Below, in pieces: positions 2,034 through 23,058 of a stretch of 64,000 nucleotides of DNA. Every line of letters begins with the position of its first letter. Position 1 is the first letter of the stretch. The DNA is taken from NCBI RefSeq assembly GCF_002729955.1, contig NZ_PBYA01000056.1:62001-126000 (forward strand). The letters are read 5' to 3'. The translations under genes were made by a program, and so were the position numbers. The notes under the pieces are model-generated. The model saw only the letters and a program-made list of their open reading frames with translations. It made no database searches and was not told the origin of the DNA. Source of the stretch: Salinisphaera sp. (GTDB lineage Bacteria > Pseudomonadota > Gammaproteobacteria > Nevskiales > Salinisphaeraceae).

Positions 2034-4077
2034 GTGTTCCCCGCACCCGCGGGGATGAACCGGCCGCTTGGCGAGAATCGCGTTCTCGCTGCCAGTGTTC
2101 CCCGCACCCGCGGGGATGAACCGGCCATGGACACACAGATCAGCCGCATTCTGGCGTGTTCCCCGCACCCGCGGGGATGAACCGGACAGCGACGCGAAGC
2201 GCGAGTTGCTGGAACGGTGTTCCCCGCACCCGCGGGGATGAACCGCCTGTCATTCGGCTCGATGGACGAAGGCCAGTGTGTTCCCCGCACCCGCGGGGAT
2301 GAACCGCGTGGAAGGCGATTCAGAGCGATCAGGCAAAGGTGTTCCCCGCACCCGCGGGGATGAACCGATGACTGGGTCGAAGTCGATCGCGCGATCATCG
2401 TGTTCCCCGCACCCGCGGGGATGAACCGGCACTTGCCGAGCGTATTTGCGCGCGATTGGCGTGTTCCCCGCACCCGCGGGGATGAACCGGCGAGGCATCG
2501 CGGCGGTTTCGAAACCTGGCCGTGTTCCCCGCACCCGCGGGGATGAACCGGTCGAGAGCCGTCTGCGGTGTGAACGCGAAGGGTGTTCCCCGCACCCGCG
2601 GGGATGAACCGGATGGCGCGAACCCGATTGACGCTAATTGCGCGTGTTCCCCGCACCCGCGGGGATGAACCGGCCGGCTTGCTTGTGCAGCGCACCGCGC
2701 AACAGTGTTCCCCGCACCCGCGGGGATGAACCGAGCTCATCGCGCAGATCGAGGCGACCAACAACGTGTTCCCCGCACCCGCGGGGATGAACCGGATACG
2801 AAAATACTTCCCCCGCTCCATATTCCGTGTTCCCCGCACCCGCGGGGATGAACCGGCCCAAATCACCGCCGAAACCGTGCGCGGCTAGTGTTCCCCGCAC
2901 CCGCGGGGATGAACCGCCGGCGCCGAACCCGAAGCCGTCGCAGACGACGTGTTCCCCGCACCCGCGGGGATGAACCGTCCGAGAACATGGTGTTCAACGG
3001 CCTGCCGAAGTGTTCCCCGCACCCGCGGGGATGAACCGTAACTTTTCCTGTATGCGGACGCCTGCATAACGTGTTCCCCGCACCCGCGGGGATGAACCGG
3101 TCGATCTCAAGCGCACCGAAATCGTGCCCAAGTGTTCCCCGCACCCGCGGGGATGAACCGGCCGCACGCACACCACGGTCGAGCTCATCTAAGTGTTCCC
3201 CGCACCCGCGGGGATGAACCGCATGCGGGGCTCCTGTTAAGCGGCGCGGACGCGTGTTCCCCGCACCCGCGGGGATGAACCGCCGGAAGTCGCAGCAGAA
3301 CGCGAAGTTCCACGCGTGTTCCCCGCACCCGCGGGGATGAACCGCAGCTGACCACGACACAGGAAAAGTCGACGGCGTGTTCCCCGCACCCGCGGGGATG
3401 AACCGCTGGGCAGCGCCACCGATCTGGCCGGCGAAGAGTGTTCCCCGCACCCGCGGGGATGAACCGGTCACGAACCAGTCGCAGGCAAACGCGTCGGCGT
3501 GTTCCCCGCACCCGCGGGGATGAACCGGGCCGACGTACGGGCATCACGTTTGCGGAAGCGTGTTCCCCGCACCCGCGGGGATGAACCGTCCGACAAATCG
3601 GCCGTTTCGACGGTCGGGTCGTGTTCCCCGCACCCGCGGGGATGAACCGAAGAAGAAACGCAGCGATGGGCTGCGCGAGTCGTGTTCCCCGCACCCGCGG
3701 GGATGAACCGACGTATCGACGGTGCAGGCAAAGGCCGAAGAGGTGTTCCCCGCACCCGCGGGGATGAACCGTCAAACATGGCCATCGGGAGCGGCATCAA
3801 TCTGTGTTCCCCGCACCCGCGGGGATGAACCGCACAAACGCAAATGCGCGAGCTGGGCGCTACGGTGTTCCCCGCACCCGCGGGGATGAACCGGACTGCG
3901 CCACCCAGGTAGCGCCCTTGAATGCGTGTTCCCCGCACCCGCGGGGATGAACCGCGCCAGAGAGGCAGCGCGCCGAAGCATGGAGCGTGTTCCCCGCACC
4001 CGCGGGGATGAACCGATCCTCGGCCTGGTCGAGCGCGCGGACAACGACGTGTTCCCCGCACCCGCGGGGACGAACTG
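2034..4077 (+). CRISPR. Type I-E CRISPR array, 34 repeats / 33 spacers
   Basis: A 29-bp repeat (starts GTGTTCCCCGCA, ends GGGGATGAACCG) recurs with a 61-bp period from 2034. It contains the inverted CCCCGC/GCGGGG arms that form the hairpin cut by Cas6e. Repeats 1-33 appear identical. Spacers are 32 nt except spacer 21 (before the repeat at 3316) and spacer 33 (before the repeat at 4049), which are 33 nt. The last repeat is degenerate at two bases, marking the leader-distal end. All spacers look different from one another. Orientation matches the cas genes and leader on the left. The many spacers, uniform repeats and intact cas1/cas2 suggest an active locus. Confidence 0.99.
4049..4077 (+). 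repeat. Degenerate terminal CRISPR repeat
   Basis: The final repeat copy ends GGGGACGAACTG instead of GGGGATGAACCG (two transitions near its 3' end) and is preceded by a 33-nt spacer. Decay of the leader-distal repeat is usual, since it is the oldest copy and is not the template for new repeats. Confidence 0.9.
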
Positions 4078-4513: not shown

Positions 4514-5104
4514 TTAGTCCACGCGATACCCATCCACCCGCCAGCGCTGGCTTCGGAACTGGCGGACCCTGATAACCGGTCGGCCGAGGGCTTTGATGAA
4601 GCGCGTGTGGATGCCGGCGGTGCGTTGGCTGTTGTCGGGGAATTCCACCTGGTGGTGGGCGAGTACCAGGCGGGCGCCGGGGGCAAGGGCGGTGGCGACG
4701 TCGCGGGCCAGGCGTTGCATGGCGCGGGCGTCTAGGTAGTAGAGCAGTTCGGCGATGACTACGGCTTCGTACTGCGTGCCCGGCAGGCGGGCGGGCAGGG
4801 CGATCTGCCAGGCCTGGGCATGGGGTGCGTCGGCGAGGGCGTCGCGGGTGAGCTGGGTGGCGCTGGGGCTGCCGTCGCAGGCCTGGAGCTTGAGGGCGCG
4901 CCGGGCCAGGGCCTGGCTGTTGGAGCCGTTGCCGCTGGCCAGTTCGAGAATACGGGCGATGGGGCCGTCGCCGAGCGCGCGCAGGATGCGCTGGCGCTTG
5001 ATGGCTTCATCGCGGTCGGTGAAGGTGTGCCATGGGTCGGGGCCGGCGCGGAATTTGGCTTCGAAGCCGGCAAGGTCGATCGCACGGCGGGTGGCGGATT
5101 TCAT
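4514..5104 (-). CDS. Class I SAM-dependent methyltransferase (NodS-like)
   Basis: A 196-aa protein with a class I methyltransferase fold. Motif I reads ARILELASGNGSNS at about residues 50-63, where SAM would bind; an acidic residue follows the next strand (ACDGSP). The overall size and N-terminal layout (FRAGPDPWHT...) resemble NodS-type N-methyltransferases. It is the last gene of a four-gene minus-strand operon and overlaps the PIG-L deacetylase gene upstream by 4 bp (ATGA). A deacetylase that frees an amine next to a NodS-like enzyme that could methylate it recalls Nod-factor chemistry (NodB then NodS). That link is inference. The substrate is unknown. Confidence 0.8.
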   Translation of the reverse strand: MKSATRRAIDLAGFEAKFRAGPDPWHTFTDRDEAIKRQRILRALGDGPIARILELASGNGSNSQALARRALKLQACDGSPSATQLTRDALADAPHAQAWQIALPARLPGTQYEAVVIAELLYYLDARAMQRLARDVATALAPGARLVLAHHQVEFPDNSQRTAGIHTRFIKALGRPVIRVRQFRSQRWRVDGYRVD

Positions 5105-5769
5105 GGCTGGCTCCCAAAGCGTTCCACGGGGTGGCCGAAGCGCACGCGCAGATCGCGGCCGATTGTAAAGCCGTCTGCGTCGTCGACGAGTTGGCCGAAC
5201 TGGCTGCGATAGAGTGTGAGCGCGGCCTGTTTCATCGCCGCGCGCCCGCGCAGCGGCAAACGTTGGTTGCGCCCGCGCGGTCGGGGCCGGTGCGGTTCGA
5301 GACGCGGCCAGACCAGATAGGACAGCCGCGGGATGGAGGCCGGCCAGGCGCGTTTGACGGCGGCAGCGACGGCGCGGTGATCGGCGTGATTGTCGTTGAC
5401 CGAGGGGGTGACGATCAGATCCGGGCGTGGCCGACGGGCGAGATCGCGGGCGAGCGGCGCGATCATTGCCGGCCCGGCAAAGCCCAGGTCGCCGTCGGGG
5501 TAGCCGAGAAAGCGCAGGTCCTGGCGGCGGATGCCGGCGCGGCGCAGCACGCGCCGTGTTTCGCGATAGCGGGTGTCACGCAGGCGCGCCCGTGGCCAGG
5601 CCGCACTTTCGCGATGCGAGGCGCCGCCGTCGGTGACCAGCGTCACGTCGACCACCGTGCCGCGTGCGCGCAGGGCAGCGATCAGCCCGAAGGCGCCGAT
5701 GGCTTCGTCGTCCGGATGCGGGGCGATGACGTGGGCACGCACGATGCGATCGAGATCGGGCGCGTTCAC
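5101..5769 (-). CDS. PIG-L/LmbE family N-deacetylase
   Basis: A 222-aa metal-dependent deacetylase. The signature APHPDDEAIGAFG places His18, Asp20 and Asp21 at the zinc-binding/catalytic motif, and NDNHADHRAV further on supplies the family's second metal-binding element. Known relatives remove the acetyl group from N-acetylglucosamine in GlcNAc-inositol or GlcNAc-PI, or from other amino-sugar conjugates. Length is typical. It overlaps both neighbours by 4 bp, so it is tightly coupled to the acyl-CoA-dehydrogenase-like gene and the methyltransferase. The expected substrate is a glycoside made by the neighbouring glycosyltransferases. Confidence 0.88.
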   Translation of the reverse strand: MNAPDLDRIVRAHVIAPHPDDEAIGAFGLIAALRARGTVVDVTLVTDGGASHRESAAWPRARLRDTRYRETRRVLRRAGIRRQDLRFLGYPDGDLGFAGPAMIAPLARDLARRPRPDLIVTPSVNDNHADHRAVAAAVKRAWPASIPRLSYLVWPRLEPHRPRPRGRNQRLPLRGRAAMKQAALTLYRSQFGQLVDDADGFTIGRDLRVRFGHPVERFGSQP

Positions 5770-6797
5770 AGCGACAGCTCGATATGCCCGGCCGCCGCGG
5801 CTGCCCCGGTTTTAACCCGCTGGGCATCCGGTGCGGGCTGGCGCAGATAGACCATTAGATCCGCCATATGCCGACACAGCGGGTCGGTTTCGAAAAACGC
5901 GGACAGGCCGACGCACTGCTGGGCCAGGGTGAGTGCCTGTTCGCCGGCGTCGAGCACGGCGCTGCGGGCGTTGGCCACGAGCGCCGGATGGTGATCAGCG
6001 TCGCTTTCATACAGGCGAGCGGCGGTGCGATCGACCATCGCGGCCGCGCCGTCGGCCAGGCCGTACAGGCGCCCCAGCCGGGCCGCCTGGTGCGGGTCGT
6101 CGTCGCGGCCGCGGGTCACCAGATGCCGGCGTACGCCGTCGAACAGTCCGGCGATACCGCCCGCGTGAACGGCGACGAACCGCAGGGCGCCGGCGCTGAG
6201 CCAGGGTTCGCGTTCGTAGTCGCCGGGTTGGCCGATGCGTATGTCGTGGTCGCTTAGTGGCGCATCGTTCCAGCGCACGAGATGGGTATGCGAGCGCTGC
6301 ATACCCAGCACCTGCCACCAGTCGGTATCGAGGATGGGCGGGGTGCGTGCGAGGTCGACGACGAGCAGCTGCTTGGCGTCGCTGTCCGGCACCTCGGCGC
6401 TGACCAGCGCATGGCTGAGCAGGCCCGCGCCGGAGGCGAAGGCCTTGCCGCCGTCGAGCCGGTCGTGGGCGAGCGTGAGTGCTTCGCCGGCCAGCGGCGC
6501 GTTCCATACGCCAAAGCAGGCGCCGTGGTGTGCGGCTGCGTGCAGGGCGGCCGCCGCGGCCGAATCGCCATAGCGGTTGATGATCTGCAGGGCATCGATA
6601 TGGCCTTCGAACAGGCGCCCCAGCGGCAGGTCGAAGCGCCCGGCGGCATAGAGCCGGCGCAGCAGCACGCGATAGCTCGATGCGTCGGCCGGGTCGTCGA
6701 ATGCCAGGCCTGTTTGTAGGCGGGCGATGCCCGCGGTCATGTAGGCGCTATCGCTGGCGTTACGGTCGAGGCTGGCCAGATCGGGCGTTTCGGTCAT
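5766..6797 (-). CDS. Divergent acyl-CoA dehydrogenase-like protein
   Basis: A 343-aa protein with a recognisable but divergent acyl-CoA dehydrogenase layout: an N-terminal helical part, a middle region (ACFGVWNAPLAGEAL) aligned with the usual substrate/FAD beta-domain motif (A-x-TEP-x-AGSD), and a C-terminal helical domain ending in a QQCVGLSAFFETDPLCRHMADL segment. The classic TEP motif is not present, so FAD binding or activity is uncertain. The frame stays open further upstream, but ATG 6797 creates the same 4-bp ATGA overlap with the preceding gene that the other operon members have; ATG 6809 is the alternative. It sits between a GT2 and a PIG-L deacetylase, not in a beta-oxidation operon, so it probably modifies a glycoconjugate precursor. 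Confidence 0.7.
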   Translation of the reverse strand: MTETPDLASLDRNASDSAYMTAGIARLQTGLAFDDPADASSYRVLLRRLYAAGRFDLPLGRLFEGHIDALQIINRYGDSAAAAALHAAAHHGACFGVWNAPLAGEALTLAHDRLDGGKAFASGAGLLSHALVSAEVPDSDAKQLLVVDLARTPPILDTDWWQVLGMQRSHTHLVRWNDAPLSDHDIRIGQPGDYEREPWLSAGALRFVAVHAGGIAGLFDGVRRHLVTRGRDDDPHQAARLGRLYGLADGAAAMVDRTAARLYESDADHHPALVANARSAVLDAGEQALTLAQQCVGLSAFFETDPLCRHMADLMVYLRQPAPDAQRVKTGAAAAAGHIELSL

Positions 6798-7846
6798 GCG
6801 GTCGGACATCCGTGGGCGGTTTCCAGTTGGGCGAGTCGCTGCTCGGCGCTGTCGAGCGCCAGTTCTTCGGTGTTTTCGGGTTCGCGCACGAGTTGCATGA
6901 CGAAGCTTTCGGCGCTGGCGCATTCGCCGGCGATGGCGCGCAGTTCGGCCACGGAACGGCCGCTGCGTTCGGCAAGCGTTCGGGCCGTTGCGGCGTCAGC
7001 GAGTCCATCAAAGGCGGCGCGTGCCTGGGCGCACAGCCGGTAACGTGCAAGTGCGGCGTCCGGGTTCTGTACGGCCGGCATGGCGCGCGTGGATTGGCGG
7101 GCGCGCAGGGTATCGGCCAGGCCGTCGACGGCGCGCCCGTGCACGCGCGAGGAGGTGGCCACGCGGACGCTGCGATCGTGGCGTACGCGATAGCCGGCCG
7201 CCCGGGCGGCGGTAACCAGACGCACGTCTTCGTGCGTGGCCACGTCGTCGAAGCCGCCGAGCGCGGCATAGACATCGGCCCGAAACCCCAGGTTCGCGCC
7301 GCCCTGCGACGGGTGCGAAGGCGCCGGATCGTGGCCGAGCGGGTCGACCGTACGCTGCAGGCAGCGCAGCCGTTCCCAGTAGCGTTCCACGCGGCGATGC
7401 ATATCGCTGGGCGGTGCGTCGGGTCGTTCGATATAGCCGGCCACCACGTCGGCATGCTTTAGCGCATGAATGCTGGTTTCGACCCAGTCCGTGGCGGGCA
7501 CGGAATCGGCGTCGGTGCACAGCAGCAGCTCGATATCGCCGCCGCGCCGTGTTTCAGCCAGCGTACGGGTGCCCAGTGCCATGGCCGCCCGGCGGGCTCG
7601 CCCCGCGTTGGCCACGGTCTGACGTTCGATGCGTTCGCTGACCAGGGTGTAGTCGAGCAGCGGCGCGCGCGCATCGGCATAGGTCTGGCCGCCGTCGAGA
7701 CAGCCGTCGAACAACAGACAGACGACGAAGCAATCGCGGGCGGCCGTCTGCTTGGAGAACGCATCGAGCAGGGCGGGCAGCGAATCGAATTCGTCGCGCA
7801 CGGGCACACAAATGGCAATACGCGTGCGCGTGGCAGCGCCGTTCAT
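6794..7846 (-). CDS. Glycosyltransferase family 2
   Basis: A GT-A type glycosyltransferase of about 350 aa. It begins MNGAATRTRIAICVPVRDE, the usual first strand of GT2 proteins, and carries a CTDADS motif (the DxD-like nucleotide-sugar site) and a later GGFDDVATHEDVRL segment typical of the acceptor-side region. The chosen ATG at 7846 has a GAGG ribosome-binding site 5 bp upstream; an ATG at 7906 in the same frame lacks one. It is the first gene of the operon GT2, acyl-CoA-dehydrogenase-like, PIG-L and methyltransferase, and overlaps the next gene by 4 bp. Donor and acceptor are unknown. Confidence 0.85.
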   Translation of the reverse strand: MNGAATRTRIAICVPVRDEFDSLPALLDAFSKQTAARDCFVVCLLFDGCLDGGQTYADARAPLLDYTLVSERIERQTVANAGRARRAAMALGTRTLAETRRGGDIELLLCTDADSVPATDWVETSIHALKHADVVAGYIERPDAPPSDMHRRVERYWERLRCLQRTVDPLGHDPAPSHPSQGGANLGFRADVYAALGGFDDVATHEDVRLVTAARAAGYRVRHDRSVRVATSSRVHGRAVDGLADTLRARQSTRAMPAVQNPDAALARYRLCAQARAAFDGLADAATARTLAERSGRSVAELRAIAGECASAESFVMQLVREPENTEELALDSAEQRLAQLETAHGCPTA

Positions 7847-8005
7847 GGCCTCGGTCGACCGCATGGGCGCAGCGGTGGCGAACCCGCGCGGGATACGCTC
7901 ATGCATAAGGCGTGCACGCTTGGCTGGGCATAGGACTGGATGGTAGTGCCTCGGGCAGGCTGCAGTAATGCGTAGTAATGCGGGCGCGGCATACAAACCG
8001 TGTGT

Positions 8006-9070
8006 TCAGGCATCGGCCAGCAGGCGTTCGTAGAGCGCGACGTAATCCCGGGCCATGCGTTCGGCGGTAAAGCGTTCGAGAAAACGGGCGCGGATGGTGG
8101 CACGGTCGAGTTCGGGCAGGCGGGCGACGGCTGCCACGGCGTCGTCGATGTTGTCGACGATGAAGCCGGTCACGCCGTGCTCCACCACTTCCGGCGCCGC
8201 GCCGTTGTTCCAGGCGATCACCGGCGTGCCGCAGGCCATGGCCTCGATCATGACCAGGCCGAAGGGCTCCGGCCAGTCGATGGGAAAGACGAGCGCGCGG
8301 GCGGCGCTTAGCAGCTCGCGTTTGCGTGCGTCGTCCACCGCGCCGACGTGTTCGATCGTGCCGCCCAGCGCGGGTTTGACGTGGTGTTCGAAATAGTACG
8401 GATTTCCGGGGTCGCGACTTCCGGCTAGTTTGAGTGGGTGTTCGCAGCGTCTGGCAATCTCGATGGCGCGATCGGGACGCTTCTGATCGGTCATGCGACC
8501 GATGAACAGCAGCGTGTCGTCGACCGTCGAGGGCTGCGTTGGCACAACACGTGCCGGGTCCAGCCCGTGGGCGACAACGCCGCGGCAGTTGGCGGCCGGT
8601 ATGGTAGCGGCCTGACTGGCCGAGATGGCGGCCACGGGCAGGTCCGGAAAGGCGGAGAAGAAAAGCTGGCGGTCGAGTTCGTCGGTACGCCAGTGGATGG
8701 TGGTCAGGCTGTGCCTGCGTCGCTCGCCCAGCAGCGCGGCATGAAAGAATTCGCCGTGGCAGTGGACGATATCGAAATCGGCCAGGCGTGCGCGCAGACG
8801 CTCCATGAGCGCGGCTTCGAGCACGCCGGGCAGACCGGGCGGCACGTGGCCGTCGCGGGCCTCGAAGAAGGCCAGGCTTTCGAGCGCGCTCACGCACGGC
8901 AGGTCGAGATCGCTGTCGGCGCTTGCGAACACGGTGACCTGGTGGCCGAGCGCGTTCAGCGCGTAGCTCAGGTCGACCACGATACGCTCGGTACCGCCGG
9001 CCTCGCGTGCGGGCAGGGGCAGAATAAGCGGTGAGATCTGCGCGATGCGCAGCGGCCGGTTCAGGGTCAT
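8006..9070 (-). CDS. Glycosyltransferase family 4
   Basis: A 354-aa GT-B retaining glycosyltransferase. The N-terminal GGTERIVVDLSYAL loop and the C-terminal EPFGLVMIEAMACGTPVIAW segment (E-x7-E motif) are classic GT4 features. The frame is open far upstream into the divergent gene, so the long version is rejected; ATG 9070 (MTLNRPLRIAQISPL) fits the fold start, with a GTG 21 bp upstream as alternative. Its start lies only 45 bp from that of the divergently transcribed SPS-like gene, so the two probably share a promoter region. It probably acts in the same pathway as the surrounding glycosyltransferases. Confidence 0.88.
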   Translation of the reverse strand: MTLNRPLRIAQISPLILPLPAREAGGTERIVVDLSYALNALGHQVTVFASADSDLDLPCVSALESLAFFEARDGHVPPGLPGVLEAALMERLRARLADFDIVHCHGEFFHAALLGERRRHSLTTIHWRTDELDRQLFFSAFPDLPVAAISASQAATIPAANCRGVVAHGLDPARVVPTQPSTVDDTLLFIGRMTDQKRPDRAIEIARRCEHPLKLAGSRDPGNPYYFEHHVKPALGGTIEHVGAVDDARKRELLSAARALVFPIDWPEPFGLVMIEAMACGTPVIAWNNGAAPEVVEHGVTGFIVDNIDDAVAAVARLPELDRATIRARFLERFTAERMARDYVALYERLLADA

Positions 9071-9115
9071 GGCACGGGGATGATGGTTCACGGCGACACA
9101 GGATAAAGCGCGCCC

Positions 9116-11203
9116 ATGTTTATCATGCACATCGCCCTGCAAGGGTGTCTTCGAGCCCACGACGTGGAATACGGGCTCACCGCCGATACCGGCGGGCATA
9201 TTCGTTACCTGCTGGAACTGGCCCAGGCCTCGGCACGCGACCCGGATATCGAGCGGATCGATATCATCACGCGCGCCTTCGATGCGGATTTCACCGAGGG
9301 CGACTATCGCAGCGGCTGCGAATACGTGAACCCCAAGGTGCGCATCATCCGGCTGGCCACGCCGGACCCGGCCTACCGCAGCAAGGAAGAACTCTGGGAT
9401 CAGTTGCCGGCGTTCAGCAACGGGTTGATCGACTATATCGACAGCCTGGCGCAGGCGCCGGATATGCTGCATGCCCACTACGCAGACGCCGCCCACGTCG
9501 CCGCCGAGGTCAAGCAGCGGCTGGGTATACCGTTCGTGTTCACCGCCCACTCCCTGGGCCAGCCCAAACGGGATTACGCCGCGAATTCCGGGGCGGCAGG
9601 CACGCCGGCAAACGCGACGCTCGATCGCCGTATCGCGGTGGAAAACCAGGCGCTGCGCGATGCCAGCCTGGTGATCGCGAGTTCGCGCGACGAGGCCGAA
9701 CACCAGTACGCCCAGTATCCGGACTACGATCCGGGGCGTATCCGCGTGATCCGCCCGGCCAGCGACCTGCAGGCCTTTGCGCGGTCCCAGCCCAACGAGC
9801 GCGTGCATGCGTTGATGTCGCGCTTTCTCAACGAGCCGGACAAACCCGCGCTGCTGGCGATCGCACGCCCGGTCACGCGTAAGAACCTGGCGAACCTTAT
9901 CCGGGCCTACGGCGAGTCGCCGGCGTTGCAGGCACGCGCCAATCTGGTGATTCTCGCCGGCGGGCGGCAATCCCTGGATGCGCTCGAACCCGAGATCGCC
10001 GACAACCTGCGCGAAATGCTGGCGCTGATCGATCACTACGATCTGTATGGCCGTATTGCCTACCCGAAGCAGCATCACGGCGCCGACGTGCCGGCGGTCT
10101 ATGCCTGGGCACGCGAGCGCGGCGGGCTGTTCGCCAACGTGGCCTTCAACGAGCCCTTCGGCCTGACCCTGCTGGAAGCCGCGGCCGCGGGGCTGCCGGT
10201 CGTCGCCACCGATTCCGGCGGGCCGAACGACATCATCGAACAGTGCCACAACGGTGTGCTGGTCAATCCCTGCTCGACCGACGCCATCGCCTCAGCCGCC
10301 GTCGAATTGCTCGACGATCATGAACGCTGGTTAGCCTGCCAGGCCGGCGGGCGCAAGGCCACCAGCGTGTTCGACTGGGCGCGCCATGTGGATTACTACC
10401 ACCGGCTTGTGCATCGTCTGTGCGATACCCGCCGCCAACGCAGGGCGCGCGTATCCGCGCCGGCGGACGCCATGCTGGTATGCGATATCGACGGTACGCT
10501 GGTGGGCTGCTCGCAGGGCGTGACGCACTTCAACGCCTGGTATGCCGGGCAGCCGCGGCTGCGCTTCGGCGTGGCCACCGGCCGCAGTTTCCATAGCGCG
10601 CTGCTGATTCTCGAGCAGGCCGGCATTGCCTGGCCGGATTTTCTTATCGCCTGCGTGGGCGCCGAGGTGTATCGGCTGGCGGCCGACGGCGTGACCTACG
10701 TCCGCGATACCCGCTGGGCCGCGCGAATCGGGCAGGGCTGGAACCGAGCCGCGGTTGCCCGAGTGCTGGACGGCGTGGACGAACTCGTCGCCCAGTCGCC
10801 GCTGGAGCAGCGCGAGCACAAGATCAGCTATCTGTGCGAGCCGGGGCAGGACATCGCCCCGCGCCTGCGCGCACTGTTGGCCGAGAACGGCCTGCAGGCT
10901 CGGGTGATTCACAGCAACGATCGCTGCGTTGACGTGCTGCCGATACGTGCCTCGAAAGGCGCGGCGGTCGACTATCTGGCCCAGGCCACCGACACCCACC
11001 ACGAGCGTGTCTATGTGGCCGGTGATTCGGCCAACGATCTGGAAATGCTGCAGACACTGCCCTGCGCCATCGTGGTCGCCAACTATCGCGACGGCCTTGC
11101 CCAGGCCGCGGGGCTGGGGCATGCCTATCTGGCCGGCGCCAGCCATGCCCGCGGCGTGATCGAGGGCGTAGCCCACTTCCAGGCCCAGTGCCACGCCTCG
11201 TGA
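9116..11203 (+). CDS. Sucrose-phosphate-synthase-like GT4 fused to HAD phosphatase
   Basis: A 695-aa two-domain protein. Residues about 1-450 form a GT4 like sucrose-phosphate synthase: GLTADTGGHIRYLLEL near the N-terminus, HAHYADAA, TAHSLG, and NEPFGLTLLEAAAAGLPVVATDSGGP near 340-365. From Asp457 (DIDGTLVG) to the end is a HAD-IIB phosphatase with GDSANDLEML, resembling sucrose-phosphate phosphatase. Such fusions make a phosphorylated disaccharide and dephosphorylate it; sucrose and mannosylfructose are known products and serve as compatible solutes or glycosyl precursors. The exact sugar cannot be read from the sequence. It overlaps the following GT2 by 4 bp. Confidence 0.85.
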   Translation: MFIMHIALQGCLRAHDVEYGLTADTGGHIRYLLELAQASARDPDIERIDIITRAFDADFTEGDYRSGCEYVNPKVRIIRLATPDPAYRSKEELWDQLPAFSNGLIDYIDSLAQAPDMLHAHYADAAHVAAEVKQRLGIPFVFTAHSLGQPKRDYAANSGAAGTPANATLDRRIAVENQALRDASLVIASSRDEAEHQYAQYPDYDPGRIRVIRPASDLQAFARSQPNERVHALMSRFLNEPDKPALLAIARPVTRKNLANLIRAYGESPALQARANLVILAGGRQSLDALEPEIADNLREMLALIDHYDLYGRIAYPKQHHGADVPAVYAWARERGGLFANVAFNEPFGLTLLEAAAAGLPVVATDSGGPNDIIEQCHNGVLVNPCSTDAIASAAVELLDDHERWLACQAGGRKATSVFDWARHVDYYHRLVHRLCDTRRQRRARVSAPADAMLVCDIDGTLVGCSQGVTHFNAWYAGQPRLRFGVATGRSFHSALLILEQAGIAWPDFLIACVGAEVYRLAADGVTYVRDTRWAARIGQGWNRAAVARVLDGVDELVAQSPLEQREHKISYLCEPGQDIAPRLRALLAENGLQARVIHSNDRCVDVLPIRASKGAAVDYLAQATDTHHERVYVAGDSANDLEMLQTLPCAIVVANYRDGLAQAAGLGHAYLAGASHARGVIEGVAHFQAQCHAS

Positions 11204-12075
11204 ACACGAGCGTACTCACCCTGGTACGCGACCGGCGCGCGCATCTGGTCAACCTCATGCACGGGCTCAACGCCCAGTCGCGCCCGCCGGATGAGCTGGT
11301 CATCGCCTGGATGCAGCCCGAAATCGAGCCGGACCTACCGGCCACGGGTTTCGCGGTGCGTCATATCCGGGTGGAGGGTTCCGATCTGCCGCTGGCACGG
11401 GCTCGCAATCTCGCCGCCGAGCGCGCGGCCCACGAAGGGCTGATCTTTCTGGACGTGGACTGCATACCGGCGCCCGAGCTGGTGCAGCGCTATCTCGACG
11501 CGCTGGCCGAACGTGCGGGGCTGTTCATGGGCGAGGTGCGCTATCTACCGGCCGATGCCGTACGCGTCGACGCTGACGGTACGCCGGATTTCGAACGCAT
11601 GGACCGGCTGGGCGAGATTCATCCGGCACGGCCGCGGCTGAAAACCGACGCGCCGGTGTCTGAAGGCGACCCGGGCCAGCTCTGGGGGCTGTCGTTCGCG
11701 CTGCGCCGGGCCGATCACGCCCGTGCCGGTGGTTTCGACGAGGCCTATGAAGGCTATGGCGGCGAAGAAACCGACTACGCCTGGCGTCTGGCGGCCGCGG
11801 GCGTCGACTTCTACTGGCTGGCCGGTGCCCGTGCCTGGCACCAGCACCATCCCCTCTACCGGCCGCCGTATCCGCATTTCGAGGCGATTGTCACCAACGC
11901 CCGTCGTTTCCATGCACGCTGGGGGCGCTGGTGCATGGACTACTGGCTGGGCATGTTTCGCGACGCGGGGCTTATCGACTGGTCGCCCGCGGCCGACGAT
12001 ATCGTCGTGCGGCGCCAGCCGAGCCCCGAAGAAATCCGCGCCGCCCGCCTGGACGGCGAGGTGCGCTACGGCTAG
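11200..12075 (+). CDS. Glycosyltransferase family 2 with C-terminal GT7-type domain
   Basis: A protein of about 291 aa. After a GT2-type start (NTSVLTLVRDRRAHL) come the DVDCIP metal/nucleotide motif near residue 90 and the GGFDEAYEGYGGEETDYAWRL region, which is the glyco_transf_7C signature. I chose GTG 11200 because it gives a 4-bp overlap (GTGA) with the SPS-like gene; another in-frame GTG lies at 11188. Co-transcription with the SPS-HAD fusion suggests it uses or extends the same sugar product, but the acceptor is unknown. Confidence 0.82.
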   Translation: MNTSVLTLVRDRRAHLVNLMHGLNAQSRPPDELVIAWMQPEIEPDLPATGFAVRHIRVEGSDLPLARARNLAAERAAHEGLIFLDVDCIPAPELVQRYLDALAERAGLFMGEVRYLPADAVRVDADGTPDFERMDRLGEIHPARPRLKTDAPVSEGDPGQLWGLSFALRRADHARAGGFDEAYEGYGGEETDYAWRLAAAGVDFYWLAGARAWHQHHPLYRPPYPHFEAIVTNARRFHARWGRWCMDYWLGMFRDAGLIDWSPAADDIVVRRQPSPEEIRAARLDGEVRYG

Positions 12076-12205
12076 TGGCCTTTAACACGGAAGCCAGTAG
12101 CGCCCTCGCTGCACAAAAGCGTGCCAGACAAGGCGGGTGGCGCCGGAGTTAGCTGGTCCAGGGCCAAGCCACGCTACGCTGCGCGACGACTGGGGCTAAC
12201 AGGCC
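12076..12205. other. Convergent intergenic spacer
   Basis: 130 bp between the ends of two convergent glycosyltransferase genes. I see no U-tailed terminator hairpin. Confidence 0.4.
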
Positions 12206-13351
12206 CTAGTTGGCGTTGGCGGCCACCGCCACCGGCTGGGGCGCGCCCGTCGCGTCGTCCCGCCATAGCGTTTCCACGCGCGATTGCAGCCACTCGGCCG
12301 CCCGGGCCGCCGCTTCGGGCGAATACAGGCCGCGCTGGTGTTCGATATCGAGCGTTCGGGCCCGCTCGAGTAGCGCGCGCCAGCCGTCGAGATCGCCCGG
12401 CCAGTTGGGCAGGTGAATCGCCGCACCCACGGCGGCCAGCGACTCGGCCTTGCGCTGCTGCTCATCGAAATACCGCCACTCCGGTGCGCAGATAAACGGA
12501 CGCCCGGCCCGCATGACCTCGTGCACGGTGTTGTCGCCCGCGGAGGCGAGCACGATATCGGCGGCGGCGATGTAGTCGCTGGTATGCGATACCCAGCCGT
12601 GATTGACCAGGTTGGCGAAGTCGGTTTCGTGGCCTTCGCGGTGCAGCGGGCCGACGGTGACGAACAGGGTGTCAGGGGCGGCCCGTGCGGCCACGGTCAA
12701 GGGCGCATAGGGCGTACCCGCGCCGCCGCCGCCGGTGAGGGCGACCACGATCTCGCGATCCAGCGGCAGGCCCAGCGCTCGGCGTGCCGAGACTTTATCG
12801 TCGCGATGTTCGCTGCTGGTACACAGGCCGCCGCTGTAGAAGGTCTTCGCGCGGGCCCAGTCGGGGTAGTCCGCCTGTTCCAGGCGCTCGTCGAAGGGCG
12901 CGAGCATGCCGGCACAGGCATCGTAGGCGGCCAGGTGGCCGGCATCGCCGCGATTGCCGTGCATGCGGATCTTGATCGCCGGTACGCTGGCGATGCGTGC
13001 GAGCAGGGCCAGTTCGGCCGATACGTCGATCACGAACAGCCCGGTATCGCGGTCGTCCAGATGGTCGAGAATACGGCGCATGGTCTGGCGCATCGCGGGC
13101 AGGCCCAGCGGTACGCAGTGCATGACCGACGGCGTGGGCTGGTCGTAGAGTTCGGGCGTGGGAACGGGCGCGCCGATCATGTTCGGCAGGGCGACGATTT
13201 CGATATCGCGCTCGAAGCCGTCGAACAAGGACGGGTCAGCCGTGAGAACGCTGACCGGTTGCGAGGCCGGCAGCTCACGCACGATCGCCATCGTGCGTTG
13301 GGCATGTCCGCGGCCCTGGTGATGAACGAAAAAACTGATCGGTTTGGCCAT
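12206..13351 (-). CDS. MurG-like (GT28-type) glycosyltransferase
   Basis: A 381-aa GT-B protein. It starts MAKPISFFVHHQGRGHAQRT, with the GxGHxxR motif used by MurG/GT28 and related enzymes to contact acceptor and nucleotide sugar. In the C-terminal half VALTGGGGAG and ADIVLASAGDNTVHEVMRAGRPFICAPE match the UDP-sugar binding region of the GT28 family. An in-frame ATG 12 bp upstream (13363) is possible. It converges on the SPS/GT2 pair and is probably the last enzyme gene of the glyco-conjugate island. Family assignment is good; substrate unknown. Confidence 0.8.
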   Translation of the reverse strand: MAKPISFFVHHQGRGHAQRTMAIVRELPASQPVSVLTADPSLFDGFERDIEIVALPNMIGAPVPTPELYDQPTPSVMHCVPLGLPAMRQTMRRILDHLDDRDTGLFVIDVSAELALLARIASVPAIKIRMHGNRGDAGHLAAYDACAGMLAPFDERLEQADYPDWARAKTFYSGGLCTSSEHRDDKVSARRALGLPLDREIVVALTGGGGAGTPYAPLTVAARAAPDTLFVTVGPLHREGHETDFANLVNHGWVSHTSDYIAAADIVLASAGDNTVHEVMRAGRPFICAPEWRYFDEQQRKAESLAAVGAAIHLPNWPGDLDGWRALLERARTLDIEHQRGLYSPEAAARAAEWLQSRVETLWRDDATGAPQPVAVAANAN

Positions 13352-13424
13352 GGGCGAACGCATCGAAGCCCGACGTCGCCGGGCAGGGGAACCATCGCGT
13401 CATGATCGGGGTCGCCGCCGTTCG

Positions 13425-17128: not shown

Positions 17129-17530
17129 ATGCAAGCAGAAGCCATGCTCAAGAGCCACCCGAACCCGCTGTCGGTTCAGAAACAGCTGGTCGCCTGTGTC
17201 GAAGCCTGCTTCGACTGCGCGCATCACTGCACCGCCTGTGCCGATGCCTGTCTGGCCGAAGACAATGTGGCCGACCTGCGTGGCTGCATCCGAACCGACC
17301 TCGACTGTGCCGACATCTGCAACGCCACCGCGCGTGTGCTGTCGCGCCAGACCGCCTTCGGCGAATCGCCGGCCGCCACGCAGGTGAAGGCCTGCCGCGA
17401 CGCCTGCCAGAAGTGCGCCGCGCATTGTGAAGGCCACGGCGACCAGAACCAGCACTGCGCGCTGTGTGCCGAAGCCTGCAACCGCTGCGTAAAAGCCTGC
17501 GACGATCTGCTGGGCGAGATCGACTCCTAA
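17129..17530 (+). CDS. Four-helix-bundle copper storage protein (Csp3-like)
   Basis: A 133-aa protein with 18 cysteines at 23, 27, 30, 34, 37, 41, 53, 60, 64, 89, 93, 96, 100, 110, 113, 117, 120 and 124, spaced in CxxxC and CxxC steps along predicted helices. This is the pattern of Csp copper-storage proteins, which line the core of a four-helix bundle with Cys to hold many Cu(I) ions. There is no signal peptide or Tat motif, so it matches the cytosolic Csp3 class. AAGGAG precedes the ATG by 8 bp. It is monocistronic with its own terminator. It probably buffers copper in the cytoplasm. Confidence 0.9.
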   Translation: MQAEAMLKSHPNPLSVQKQLVACVEACFDCAHHCTACADACLAEDNVADLRGCIRTDLDCADICNATARVLSRQTAFGESPAATQVKACRDACQKCAAHCEGHGDQNQHCALCAEACNRCVKACDDLLGEIDS

Positions 17531-20046: not shown

Positions 20047-23000
20047 CTATTCGAACCGGTCGTCGCCGATCTGGATCTTCGGCACGGTGTAGTCGGCGCG
20101 GGCCGGGCGTTTGTCGCTCGTATAAAACCGTCGCGTCCGCCCGTCTTCGACGGTATGCGCGCGCTGGATCTGGTTGTCGACCTCGGCGGTATATGGGATA
20201 TCGGCCAATGATCGGCCGAGCGGGTCGACAAACTCGAAGGTTTCACCGAATAGGCCACCGCCGGGCGGAAATTTGTCCATTGAGGTTTTGATCTTGCCCG
20301 GCCCCGTAAACACCTTGTTCCCCGCATGCACGGTGAGCGTGCCCGGACAGGCCACGGTAATCTTGCCGCCTTCGAGCGTGACCGAGGCCCCACCGGCGGT
20401 GGCCAGCTTGACGGCCTTTTTGCCCGCGAACTCGCCTTCGGCGTTGGCACTGGCGATCTTGAGGCTGTCCTTGCTCTGTACCTTCATCTGGTCGGCCTGG
20501 GCCTGCAGGTCCAGGTCGCCGTGGCCGGCGATGAGTTTCAAACCCTCGCCCGAGCCTTGTACGCCGGCCAACACCCCGATGGACTGACCGCTATGGATAT
20601 GCAGCCGTTCGCCGATGGCCCAGTTGCTGTCGGTGCCGCTGGCGACCGTCAGGGTTTCGTCGGCATGCCAGTGCACATCCTGGCCGGCGACGACGCCCAG
20701 GCCGGCCTTGGCGGCGATGGCCAGGATCGGATCGGCCGGGTGGGGGCGTTTGGTGTCGGCCAACGCTGTGTTTTTGTTGTCCGCATCGGCCGTGGCCTGT
20801 TGCCAGTCGGCGGCATCAACCTGCCCTTGAGCGGTTTTCAGTAGGGCCGCGAGTGGGCTGGCGCTCTCGTCGATCGAAGACTGGTTCGCTTTTGCTGCGC
20901 CCAGATGCGCCGCCAGCGCCGTCGTCGTATGCGTGGTCGCGATCTGGCTATAGCTTTCGCCGAGCTGGTTGGCCTGTTTGAGCAGCGCTTGGCCGGCGGT
21001 GAAGTCGCCGGCGGGCTCATTCGCCTGGATGCCATAGGTCGAGAGTAATACGCCACGCTCACCCCGCACCGCGCCGTACGCATCGGTTCTAAGCTCGAAG
21101 CCGGTACCGCGAAAACTGCCACGGAAGTTGTCGGCCTGATGGATCAGATGGCCGAGGTTGAGCTGGCTGTGGGCCTGGGTGGTGGCCAGCTGAATACGCT
21201 GCTGGCCGTCGGTGTCGTCGAACACGAGCTGGTTGTGGCCGCTGCCGCCGAACTCTTGGGTCTTGGTGCCGGACAGGGCCGCGGCATTGCGATGATCGTT
21301 ATCCCCGGCGGCGGCGCCATGCCAGGCCGGGGCCTGGCCGCCGGCGAGATTGCCCTGGGCGGACGGGGCATGGTCTGCGGCTTGTTGGTAAGCCGTGGTA
21401 TCGCTTTCACGCTGCGTGCCGCCGGGCGTGGCCGGCGTGCCGGCTTCGCCCTGGCCGTTGTAGAGACTGCCGGTGACCACGGGGCGATCGATATCGCCGC
21501 CGAGAAACTGCACCAGCACTTCCTGGCCGATGCGCGGGATGAACTGCTGGCCATGGCCGGCCCCGGCATCGCGCTGGGTACAACGAATCCAGCAGGTCAG
21601 GCGGTCGTCGGGTTGATCGCCGCGTTGCCAGTGAAAACGCACCTTGATCCGCCCCAGGGCATCGGTATGCAGGGCATCGGCGCCGACCGGGGCCGTGGCC
21701 CCGTCGGGGCCGACCACGGTCGCGGTCTGCGCACCCGGCGCGGTCGGGCGCGGGTTGAAGCGCAGGCCGGTGTCGTCGGCCAAGACGGGCCGCCAGGGCA
21801 CATCGCGACGGATGGCATCAAAGCGGTTGGCATAGCCTGTTTGCTTCGCCTGGGCGAGCAGGTCGGCATCGGCCTGTTCGCCGTGCGCCGCCGGTATCTT
21901 GCCCAGCCGGGCCTCGACGCGTTTAGCCAGATCATTGGGCAGGTTGTTGATGCCGACATGACTTACGCTCAGCACCAGAAACTGGCGTTTGCGCTCGTCG
22001 GCATCGCCGGTGGCGGCCGACAGCGCGTCGAGATTGGATTCGGTGAGGGTGAAGACATGCCCACAGGCGAGCGTGCGAACGCTGGACTCGCCGTGCCAGG
22101 TCTTGGTGCGCGCTTCGGCGGCTTCCAGGGCCAGGCGGGTATAGCGCTCGGCTTCGGCGTCGCTGGCCCAGGCATAGGGCCCGGCATAGTCGTAGGCTTC
22201 GAGCATGGGCGCATCCTCGGCGCCGTAGCGGGCCTCGGTGGGCAGACCGGCGCTGGCATTGGCCTTGCGCTTGTAGTCGAAGCTGGTGGACGACAGCCGG
22301 GCATAGGGCAGCTGGCGGGTGGCGCCGAACTGCTGGATGGCGTCCTGGGGTTCCTGACTGGCCGCGCGATGAAACCGGATGCCGGCCCCGCCCAGGGCAT
22401 TGGCCGAGGTGACGTCTTCAGGGCGATGGGCGGCATCGGCGAACAGCATGAGCCGATGCCCGGCCGGGGCTTCGTCATCGGTGACGAAATGAAAGCCCAG
22501 CCCTTCTTCGGCGAGCAGCCGGGCCACGAAGTCGTAATCGGACTCGCGATACTGGACGCAATAGCTGCGGGGGCGGGTGTCGTGCAGGAACTCGCCGACC
22601 TCGTCGGCGAGCTGCCAGGCGGCGATCGCGGCGTAGTCGGCAAAGACCTGTTCGACGATCTCGATGACGGTCTTGGCCTGAAACACGCGGTTGTGCCGGC
22701 CGATGGTGAGATACCACAGCCAGGGCACGGTGGTGAGCCGGTAGCGGGCGAGCCCGCCGTCGCCGGAGAGCAGCTCGGCATCGCGTACAAGCCCGGTGCG
22801 CGAGTAGCGGCTTCCATCGGCCAGGGTGGTGATCAGGGTCAGCGGCTCGCCGATGAAGTCGGGCAGGGCGAGCTGGGCATCGGGCGACAGGGCCACGATC
22901 TGGGTGGGATGCACCGACGAGAGTTCTTCGAAGCCCTGCCAGCGTTCGACCATGAGCGACGACACGCCCGCACTGCCGGCGAGGCGATACAGCCGGCTTT

Positions 23001-23058
23001 CGGCCGTGAACAAGGCCGTGAGCTCGGAGGTCAGGGCGTCTCGGGCGGCGAAAGACAT
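20047..23058 (-). CDS. vgrG: VgrG/TssI, type VI secretion spike protein
   Basis: A 1003-aa VgrG. The gp27-like base runs from about 20 to 380 (DYDFVARLLAEEGLGFHF is characteristic). It is followed by the gp5-like OB fold (GRIKVRFHWQRGDQPDDRLT, then FIPRIGQEVLVQFLGGDIDRP) and, in the C-terminal third, a DUF2345 domain with the beta-helix ending in VTLEGGKITVACPGTL. After this comes a tail of about 70 residues (GETFEFVDPLGRSLADIPYT...) like the extensions that recruit cargo in other systems. The protein forms the trimeric tip of the T6SS needle. No other T6SS structural gene is in the window, so this is an orphan vgrG locus carrying its own cargo genes. Confidence 0.95.
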   Translation of the reverse strand: MSFAARDALTSELTALFTAESRLYRLAGSAGVSSLMVERWQGFEELSSVHPTQIVALSPDAQLALPDFIGEPLTLITTLADGSRYSRTGLVRDAELLSGDGGLARYRLTTVPWLWYLTIGRHNRVFQAKTVIEIVEQVFADYAAIAAWQLADEVGEFLHDTRPRSYCVQYRESDYDFVARLLAEEGLGFHFVTDDEAPAGHRLMLFADAAHRPEDVTSANALGGAGIRFHRAASQEPQDAIQQFGATRQLPYARLSSTSFDYKRKANASAGLPTEARYGAEDAPMLEAYDYAGPYAWASDAEAERYTRLALEAAEARTKTWHGESSVRTLACGHVFTLTESNLDALSAATGDADERKRQFLVLSVSHVGINNLPNDLAKRVEARLGKIPAAHGEQADADLLAQAKQTGYANRFDAIRRDVPWRPVLADDTGLRFNPRPTAPGAQTATVVGPDGATAPVGADALHTDALGRIKVRFHWQRGDQPDDRLTCWIRCTQRDAGAGHGQQFIPRIGQEVLVQFLGGDIDRPVVTGSLYNGQGEAGTPATPGGTQRESDTTAYQQAADHAPSAQGNLAGGQAPAWHGAAAGDNDHRNAAALSGTKTQEFGGSGHNQLVFDDTDGQQRIQLATTQAHSQLNLGHLIHQADNFRGSFRGTGFELRTDAYGAVRGERGVLLSTYGIQANEPAGDFTAGQALLKQANQLGESYSQIATTHTTTALAAHLGAAKANQSSIDESASPLAALLKTAQGQVDAADWQQATADADNKNTALADTKRPHPADPILAIAAKAGLGVVAGQDVHWHADETLTVASGTDSNWAIGERLHIHSGQSIGVLAGVQGSGEGLKLIAGHGDLDLQAQADQMKVQSKDSLKIASANAEGEFAGKKAVKLATAGGASVTLEGGKITVACPGTLTVHAGNKVFTGPGKIKTSMDKFPPGGGLFGETFEFVDPLGRSLADIPYTAEVDNQIQRAHTVEDGRTRRFYTSDKRPARADYTVPKIQIGDDRFE

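Follow-up and report, generated by a model that had tools for sequence, protein, structure and literature searches.

A candidate stress-linked amino-sugar glycoside pathway encoded in two separately travelling halves in Salinisphaera sp.

A stretch of 64,000 nucleotides from Salinisphaera sp. (assembly GCF_002729955.1, contig NZ_PBYA01000056.1, positions 62,001 to 126,000 of the forward strand), referred to as the window, carries an island of eight open reading frames (ORFs) at 4514-13363, all eight of which are present there. The island is best read, with a probability of about 0.5, as a single pathway in two separately travelling halves that would make a stress-induced amino-sugar glycoside. 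One half is a block of four genes for a family 2 glycosyltransferase (GT2a), a flavoenzyme of the acyl-CoA dehydrogenase (ACAD) fold, a PIG-L type de-N-acetylase and a NodS-like methyltransferase. The other half comprises a sucrose-phosphate synthase (SPS)-like glycosyltransferase fused to a HAD phosphatase (SPS-HAD), a second GT2 enzyme (GT2b), a GT4 enzyme and a glycosyltransferase labelled MurG-like. The most likely product is a de-N-acetylated, N-methylated amino-sugar oligosaccharide induced by stress. What the sequences show is which genes are present, that these are conserved, that the two halves co-occur, that active-site motifs are intact, that stress genes lie nearby and that the genes have spread horizontally; the EcfG dependence of an operon of the SPS, MurG-like, GT2b and GT4 genes was shown by others in Sphingomonas, in the accessible part of that study (PMC6599016), and the mapping of those genes comes from the present analysis. 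New here are the stress setting, the cross-genome link between the halves, the control by EcfG that the second half is under in Sphingomonas, and the closeness of the ACAD member to flavin monooxygenases.

Conservation of the block and its link to the second half

The order GT2a-ACAD-PIG-L-methyltransferase was identical in 8/8 other loci recovered in an initial search, including those of Notoacmeibacter, Sulfitobacter and Erythrobacter, a recurrence taken to exceed chance, and the tight four-gene operon described in the initial annotation is indeed present. Wider searches employed two profiles of one ACAD family, A1 and A2, and are not independent of each other. The narrow profile A1, searched class-wide, found a member in 5/369 genomes with few candidates scored per genome, which underestimates the spread, while the diverse profile A2 found one in 34/398 Pseudomonadota genomes, the window's own included. 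The 398-genome samples used for the ACAD and MurG-like searches were taken as one set, as the listed genome handles agree, and with 4-5 candidates scored per genome their presence counts are lower bounds. Within the Salinisphaera genus, the ACAD gene occurs in 8/14 genomes, again with the window's own, and the island is therefore accessory. A record titled Endozoicomonas sp. G2_2 holds the same island; the genome set places it (G376) in the Salinisphaera genus, and the title looks wrong.

Neighbourhoods were counted in 33 ACAD genomes, with the window's own excluded. On the same strand and within 4 kb of the ACAD gene, a methyltransferase gene was found in 32 genomes, a PIG-L gene in 29, both in 28, and both together with any GT2 gene in 26. 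This comparison across genomes, on which the initial annotation had staked its proposal, did not refute it, as PIG-L and methyltransferase genes adjoin the ACAD gene in 28/33 and all four gene types stand together in 26/33. Among plasmid records, tblastn gave 81 matches to the ACAD gene, led by Acinetobacter, Sulfitobacter and Deinococcus. PIG-L and methyltransferase genes lay beside it in 12/13 plasmid regions inspected, the exception being Methylobacterium (L025); these neighbours were read by annotation or profiles, and those of the Nostoc record by profile. In Deinococcus radiodurans, a helicase gene sits ahead of the methyltransferase gene in the block.

In a tree of 59 ACAD proteins, whose bootstrap is not fully settled and in which some class labels (Alphaproteobacteria) are inferred, seven Salinisphaera rows group with seven alphaproteobacterial rows (100/94), and all 26 remaining gamma- and betaproteobacterial rows are separated from them (100/100). 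The simplest reading of this arrangement would be that the genes moved horizontally between Alphaproteobacteria and Salinisphaera.

The two halves are linked by co-occurrence. The MurG-like gene was found in 16/398 genomes, and 15 of these are among the 34 with an ACAD gene, where 1.4 would be expected (Fisher 5e-17); the overlap is 14/15 (5e-16) once the window's genome is set aside and 10/11 (3e-10) at genus level. The test covers the MurG-like/ACAD gene pair only, and the sole MurG-like genome lacking an ACAD gene is G759. In 8/15 genomes (G488, G760, G762, G443, G446, G560, G678 and G751), the MurG-like gene lies outside the ACAD stretch, in its own cluster with GT4 or GT2 genes and often with GT2b and SPS. 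Because the MurG-like gene keeps company with the ACAD gene, often from a separate site, both halves look like one pathway. The full eight-gene set recurs in two more Salinisphaera-genus genomes (L097, L098), in G615 (L060), in G798 (L078, where PIG-L and methyltransferase share one frame) and in Jiella (L102), and seven of the eight genes, without SPS, occur at L065, L075, L087 and in Novosphingobium (L101). Salinisphaera shabanensis E1L3A (L003) likewise carries the whole island.

Stress neighbourhood and EcfG control

In 8/33 genomes, the ACAD gene has a full catalase or Mn-catalase gene no more than 10 kb away; copy number and genome size would predict 0.35, with full-scoring catalases only being counted and uniform placement assumed. 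In plasmid records, annotated catalase genes neighbour the ACAD gene in Sphingomonas, Sulfitobacter and Novosphingobium, in Acinetobacter towneri together with DUF421, OtsA and OtsB, in Paracoccus with TreZ, and in Deinococcus sp. AJ005 with Dps. The annotated neighbours are Ku, LigD and RpoH in Bradyrhizobium and CsbD in Pandoraea. Pseudomonas-like loci hold ORF clusters with genes that, recognised by eye, we take to be TreY- and TreZ-like.

EcfG is the general-stress sigma factor of Sphingomonas melonis. In the accessible part of a study of strain Fr1 (PMC6599016), genes #3506-3509 are among the 50 most strongly EcfG-dependent genes, with log2 values of -3.3 to -4.3; the EcfG dependence of #3505 was confirmed by a promoter-lacZ fusion, and the authors labelled #3505-3509 as glycosyltransferases and an exopolysaccharide protein. 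The 24-base motif published for #3509 was compared with 201 genomes (genus of G735); it was found exactly in G900 and with one mismatch in G981. In G900, all four published motifs occur in the same order, with 0-2 mismatches; the gene matching #3505 is SPS-HAD, that matching #3506 is MurG-like, #3507 corresponds to GT2b, #3508 to GT4 and #3509 to a polysaccharide pyruvyl transferase. The G900 operon thus probably corresponds to S. melonis #3505-3509. The GT2a-ACAD-PIG-L-methyltransferase block of this genome has a KatE gene as its neighbour and lies on a different contig from the EcfG operon. The pyruvyl transferase that follows GT4 in this operon (L109, 8918-9808; PF04230, 75.7 bits) may mean that the product is pyruvylated in that Sphingomonas genome.

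In their accessible parts, papers on EcfG in Rhizobium etli and Sphingopyxis did not yield the block, and papers on Bradyrhizobium osmotic stress, Pseudomonas RpoS and Pseudomonas trehalose do not mention it. Titles and abstract beginnings of the openly accessible literature, to which the search was confined with other journals outside its scope, held no description of the block or its product. The proposal of a conserved glycoconjugate-type pathway whose product is absent from the literature searched was borne out.

Enzymes of the four-gene block

The PIG-L type de-N-acetylase (P0002, 5101..5769, minus strand) matches PF02585 with 96 bits, above the cut-off of 28.2, and is the sole PIG-L match of the genome. 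Its zinc and catalytic residues, the His and second Asp of the first motif and the Asp-His of the second, are kept in 53/53 homologues. The nearest NCBIfam models are BshB2 (53 bits) and BshB1 (46 bits), with cut-offs of 195 and 182 well above these scores. The enzyme would remove the acetyl group from an N-acetylated sugar of the product. Pseudomonas-like loci (L069-L072) carry an extra PIG-L gene directly downstream of the block.

The S-adenosylmethionine-dependent methyltransferase (P0001, 4514..5104, minus strand) matches NodS PF05401 with 25.6 bits (cut-off 24) together with generic methyltransferase domains, and the NodS equivalog NF041650 with 46 bits (E 4e-12), below its cut-off of 300. 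When the family profile was compared with solved structures, the best match was 4isc (219 bits), an uncharacterised methyltransferase; NodS (3ofj) came second with 95 bits and the third match had 49 bits. The NodS-type N-terminal DPW motif is aligned between the profile and 3ofj, with DP present in 51/51 homologues and W in 49/51. Because NodS is the second-best profile match with DPW aligned, a NodS-type N-methyltransferase acting on an amino sugar is a reasonable reading, and the NodS-like chemistry proposed earlier holds up.

The ACAD-fold flavoenzyme (P0003, 5766..6809, minus strand) by itself matched no Pfam family; among its relatives, 10/17 match PF00441 and 6 match PF08028. Its AlphaFold model (pLDDT 85.7) superposes on ACAD-fold chains (VIA-align) with Z about 30-32 over about 330 residues, which together with these relatives assigns it to the ACAD fold and agrees with its description in the initial annotation as a divergent ACAD-like member. 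The top solved relatives of the family profile are ACAD-fold monooxygenases, 5z8t/5gj7 (82 bits), DszC (78) and TdsC (75). The best canonical acyl-CoA dehydrogenase in the same comparison reached 65 bits, a modest margin, and the amino-sugar nitrososynthases EvdC, DnmZ and KijD3 reached 52-58 bits. The C-terminal segment of the family, which reads RDL..YLRQP, aligns with the RDVRAGLHNP segment of 5z8t, and after RDL, Arg followed by Gln or His, and no Glu, was found in 17/17 rows. Canonical ACAD enzymes carry their catalytic Glu in a C-terminal EGT segment, whose position we assume to correspond to the RDL..YLRQP region. With modest confidence, the ACAD member would be a flavin monooxygenase rather than a dehydrogenase. 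Deinococcus members (L026, 8546-10885; L103, 7603-9966) have an N-terminal extension of about 400 residues; a GT2-ACAD fusion was considered there and rejected, as the extension matches no Pfam family.

GT2a (P0004, 6794..7906, minus strand) matches PF13632 with 26.3 bits, just below the Pfam cut-off of 27, and its DxD and ED motifs are kept in all 44/44 aligned homologues with letters at those positions.

Glycosyltransferases of the second half

The GT4 enzyme (P0005, 8006..9070, minus strand), whose gene recurs with the block, has Pfam domains scoring 81-88 bits (PF00534, 88 bits); its start was set at the first ATG, which makes it 8 residues shorter than the P0005 translation. It matches NCBIfam BshA and MshA with 48-53 bits (BshA 53), below cut-offs of 274 and 462. 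GT2b (P0007, 11188..12075, plus strand) is GT2/GT7C-like, with matches to PF02709, PF10111 and PF00535 of 27-30 bits and an EpsD-type NCBIfam match of 46 bits.

SPS-HAD (P0006, 9116..11203, plus strand) matches TIGR02472 with 454.6 bits (cut-off 576) and TIGR02471 with 166.6 bits (cut-off 209.75), and in Pfam matches S6PP with 199 bits as well as glycosyltransferase domains. As both NCBIfam scores lie below their cut-offs, sucrose-phosphate synthase was rejected as a firm name. His145 and Glu346 and the HAD residues Asp457, Asp459, Lys614, Asp637 and Asp641 are invariant in 12/12 sequences, the correspondence with published catalytic residues being made by motif. The Gln of the DxGGQ motif, present in 2r60, is His in 12/12; in the accessible part of a published account of SPS, this Gln, equated here by motif, contacts the fructose part of fructose-6-phosphate (PMC7264703). 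Since that position is His throughout, the acceptor of the SPS-like enzyme may differ from fructose-6-phosphate.

The MurG-like protein (P0008, 12206..13363, minus strand) has a single Pfam match, Glyco_tran_28_C PF04101 with 29 bits, shared by 9/10 family members, and its model is poor (pLDDT 56). The family profile gives distant matches of 18-28 bits to UDP-glycosyltransferases and MurG, and the protein itself scores 21.9 bits against MurG TIGR01133, whose cut-off is 250. MurG was accordingly rejected as a firm name, and the protein is predicted to have a GT28/GT1-type C-terminal domain, not to be MurG. The initial annotation had placed GT4, SPS-HAD, a second GT2 and a MurG-like gene alongside the block; all are present, and the MurG label proved loose (22 bits against 250).

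Layout and surroundings in the window

On the minus strand the order is GT4, GT2a, ACAD-like, PIG-L and methyltransferase, the last four overlapping: methyltransferase/PIG-L and PIG-L/ACAD by 4 nt each and ACAD/GT2a by 16 nt, with a gap of 99 nt between the end of GT4 and GT2a. SPS-HAD and GT2b, on the plus strand, overlap by 16 nt and are divergent from GT4, and the MurG-like gene converges on both. No sigma-70-like site was found in the promoter scan.

The island is flanked by a CRISPR array, fatty-acid genes and transport genes, the array adjoining its methyltransferase end. The array (2034-4061 and 99-1923) has 29-nt repeats with a 61-nt period, 34 copies falling in one repeat family, and the ORFs next to it are presumably cas6e-, cas1- and cas2-like. 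In Salinisphaera orenii (L004, 1-3700), a CRISPR array with another repeat (60-nt period, 58 copies in one family) adjoins the SPS end. Further along the window, 17129-17530 encodes a Cys-rich protein of 133 residues with DUF326 repeats (PF03860), which we take to resemble copper storage proteins. A 1003-residue ORF at 20047-23058 is presumably VgrG-like and of type VI secretion; no further secretion genes were noticed among the long ORFs of the window.

Proposed pathway and competing explanations

In the proposed pathway, SPS-HAD would link a sugar from a nucleotide-activated donor to a sugar phosphate and then remove the phosphate, leaving a free non-reducing core, which GT4, GT2b, the GT28-like enzyme and GT2a would extend. 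The sugar added by GT2a would be N-acetylated; PIG-L would then de-N-acetylate it and the NodS-like enzyme would N-methylate the freed amine. The product would be oxidised by the ACAD-fold flavoenzyme; insertion of oxygen at the amine or close to it is the likeliest reaction, and dehydrogenation a less likely one. The island genes include no flippase, exporter, polymerase or acyltransferase, and a protectant of the cytoplasm or inner leaflet is therefore favoured over an exported polysaccharide.

Several observations weigh against this pathway. The MurG-like gene is missing from 19/34 ACAD genomes, Pseudomonas-like ones included; the core product therefore cannot need the second half everywhere, and the ACAD block would work without it. 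Near the ACAD gene, PIG-L was not found in G560, G446, G728 and G547, the methyltransferase in G684, or GT2 in G560, G446, G644, G656 and G684. No catalase or trehalose gene was seen beside the island in the Salinisphaera window. The Z scores of 30-32 apply to dehydrogenases and monooxygenases alike, so that structure fails to separate them, and the island holds no flavin reductase partner. The weakest links of the mechanism are the SPS-like acceptor, the substrates of the four glycosyltransferases and the ACAD-fold reaction; an amino-sugar donor gene is also absent from the island, and the chemistry as a whole is proposed from predicted enzyme families.

Among the competing explanations, a stress glycolipid is a real, though unlikely, possibility: the GT28-like and other glycosyltransferases would add sugars to a membrane lipid, by analogy with mono- and diglycosyl diacylglycerols, and a cationic N-methylated head group would arise through PIG-L and the methyltransferase. 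The GT28-type domain of the MurG-like protein, its weak profile match to processive diacylglycerol glucosyltransferase (18.7 bits) and the precedent that PIG-L acts on N-acetylglucosaminyl-phosphatidylinositol speak for it, but soluble UDP-glycosyltransferases match the same profile better (28 bits), SPS-HAD fusions yield free sugar in known cases, and acyltransferase and lipid genes are absent from the island. It is fairly improbable that the island holds two functionally separate stress modules, made neighbours by recruitment of both to general-stress islands. The modules do lie apart in several genomes, over half of the ACAD genomes do without the MurG-like gene, and both lie near stress genes; yet an ACAD gene in 15/16 MurG-like genomes, against 34/398 overall, would not be expected from shared habitat alone.

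A Nod-factor-like signal or a capsular polysaccharide, secreted in either case, appears improbable. The NodS-like methyltransferase with GT2, and the pyruvyl transferase of the Sphingomonas operon, would suit such a product, but inspection of the island revealed no NodA-like acyltransferase, no NodIJ or Wzx/Wzy and no ABC exporter. A Nod-factor system proper was rejected, as NodA and NodB are absent among the eight island proteins. Least credible, and very improbable, is a low-molecular-weight redox cofactor like mycothiol or bacillithiol, for which a glycosyltransferase and PIG-L would build an amino-sugar glycoside to be modified later. The BshB2/BshB1 and BshA/MshA matches of PIG-L and GT4 and the catalase neighbours fit this idea, but every score falls far under its curated cut-off (195, 182, 274 and 462), no BshC/MshC cysteine ligase was noticed among the island genes, and N-methylation would hinder formation of a cysteinyl amide at that amine.

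The amino-sugar glycoside made by one pathway in two halves thus stays the preferred explanation. The initial annotation is partly supported, in its conserved pathway and NodS-like chemistry; its choice between a new glycolipid and an osmolyte is not part of what was supported. A speculative extension, tentative and itself unlikely, is a new class of stress protectant in which a methylated amine attached to a sugar, which might be betaine-like or have been N-oxygenated by the ACAD-fold flavoenzyme, is carried on an SPS-built non-reducing core. As a mobile stress-tolerance trait it would be shared by Proteobacteria, Deinococcus and a cyanobacterium, on chromosomes as well as plasmids. If the pathway is real, about 1/12 of the sampled Pseudomonadota genomes (34/398) would carry a general-stress metabolite pathway for which no description was found in the literature searched; Acinetobacter, Sulfitobacter, Paracoccus and Novosphingobium are among those that have it on plasmids. 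Survival under salt, drying and oxidative stress would then have a further molecular part beside trehalose and glycogen, and a flavoprotein family so far annotated just "acyl-CoA dehydrogenase" would gain a role related to amino sugars.

Comparison with known systems

The block resembles the Nod factor system (NodC GT2, NodB, NodS, NodA) in its order of GT2, de-N-acetylation and N-methylation and in the DPW motif shared with NodS. It differs in that the deacetylase has the PIG-L fold, not that of NodB, an ACAD-fold enzyme takes the place of NodA, the island has no export genes, and its context is stress, not symbiosis. With bacillithiol and mycothiol synthesis (BshA/BshB, MshA/MshB) it shares a glycosyltransferase followed by a PIG-L deacetylase, whereas a GT2 beside PIG-L, an N-methyltransferase, the lack of a cysteine ligase and scores below the cut-offs set it apart.

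The SPS-HAD protein has the SPS-like GT-B domain, the invariant catalytic His and Glu and the intact HAD domain of bacterial SPS/phosphatase fusions (TIGR02472 with TIGR02471), but scores under both cut-offs and has His for the fructose-contacting Gln in 12/12. Group D flavin monooxygenases (DszC, TdsC, EvdC, DnmZ, KijD3) provide the best profile matches to the ACAD member, and its C-terminal segment aligns with that of 5z8t; where 5z8t has the His of its LHNP segment, however, the family has Arg followed by Gln or His, and the island has no reductase partner. In the EcfG operon #3505-3509 of S. melonis Fr1, as mapped onto the accessible part of the published study (PMC6599016), a pyruvyl transferase and a GT2 follow, and the ACAD block of G900 is on a different contig; like the second half of the island, this operon brings SPS-HAD, MurG-like, GT2b and GT4 together.

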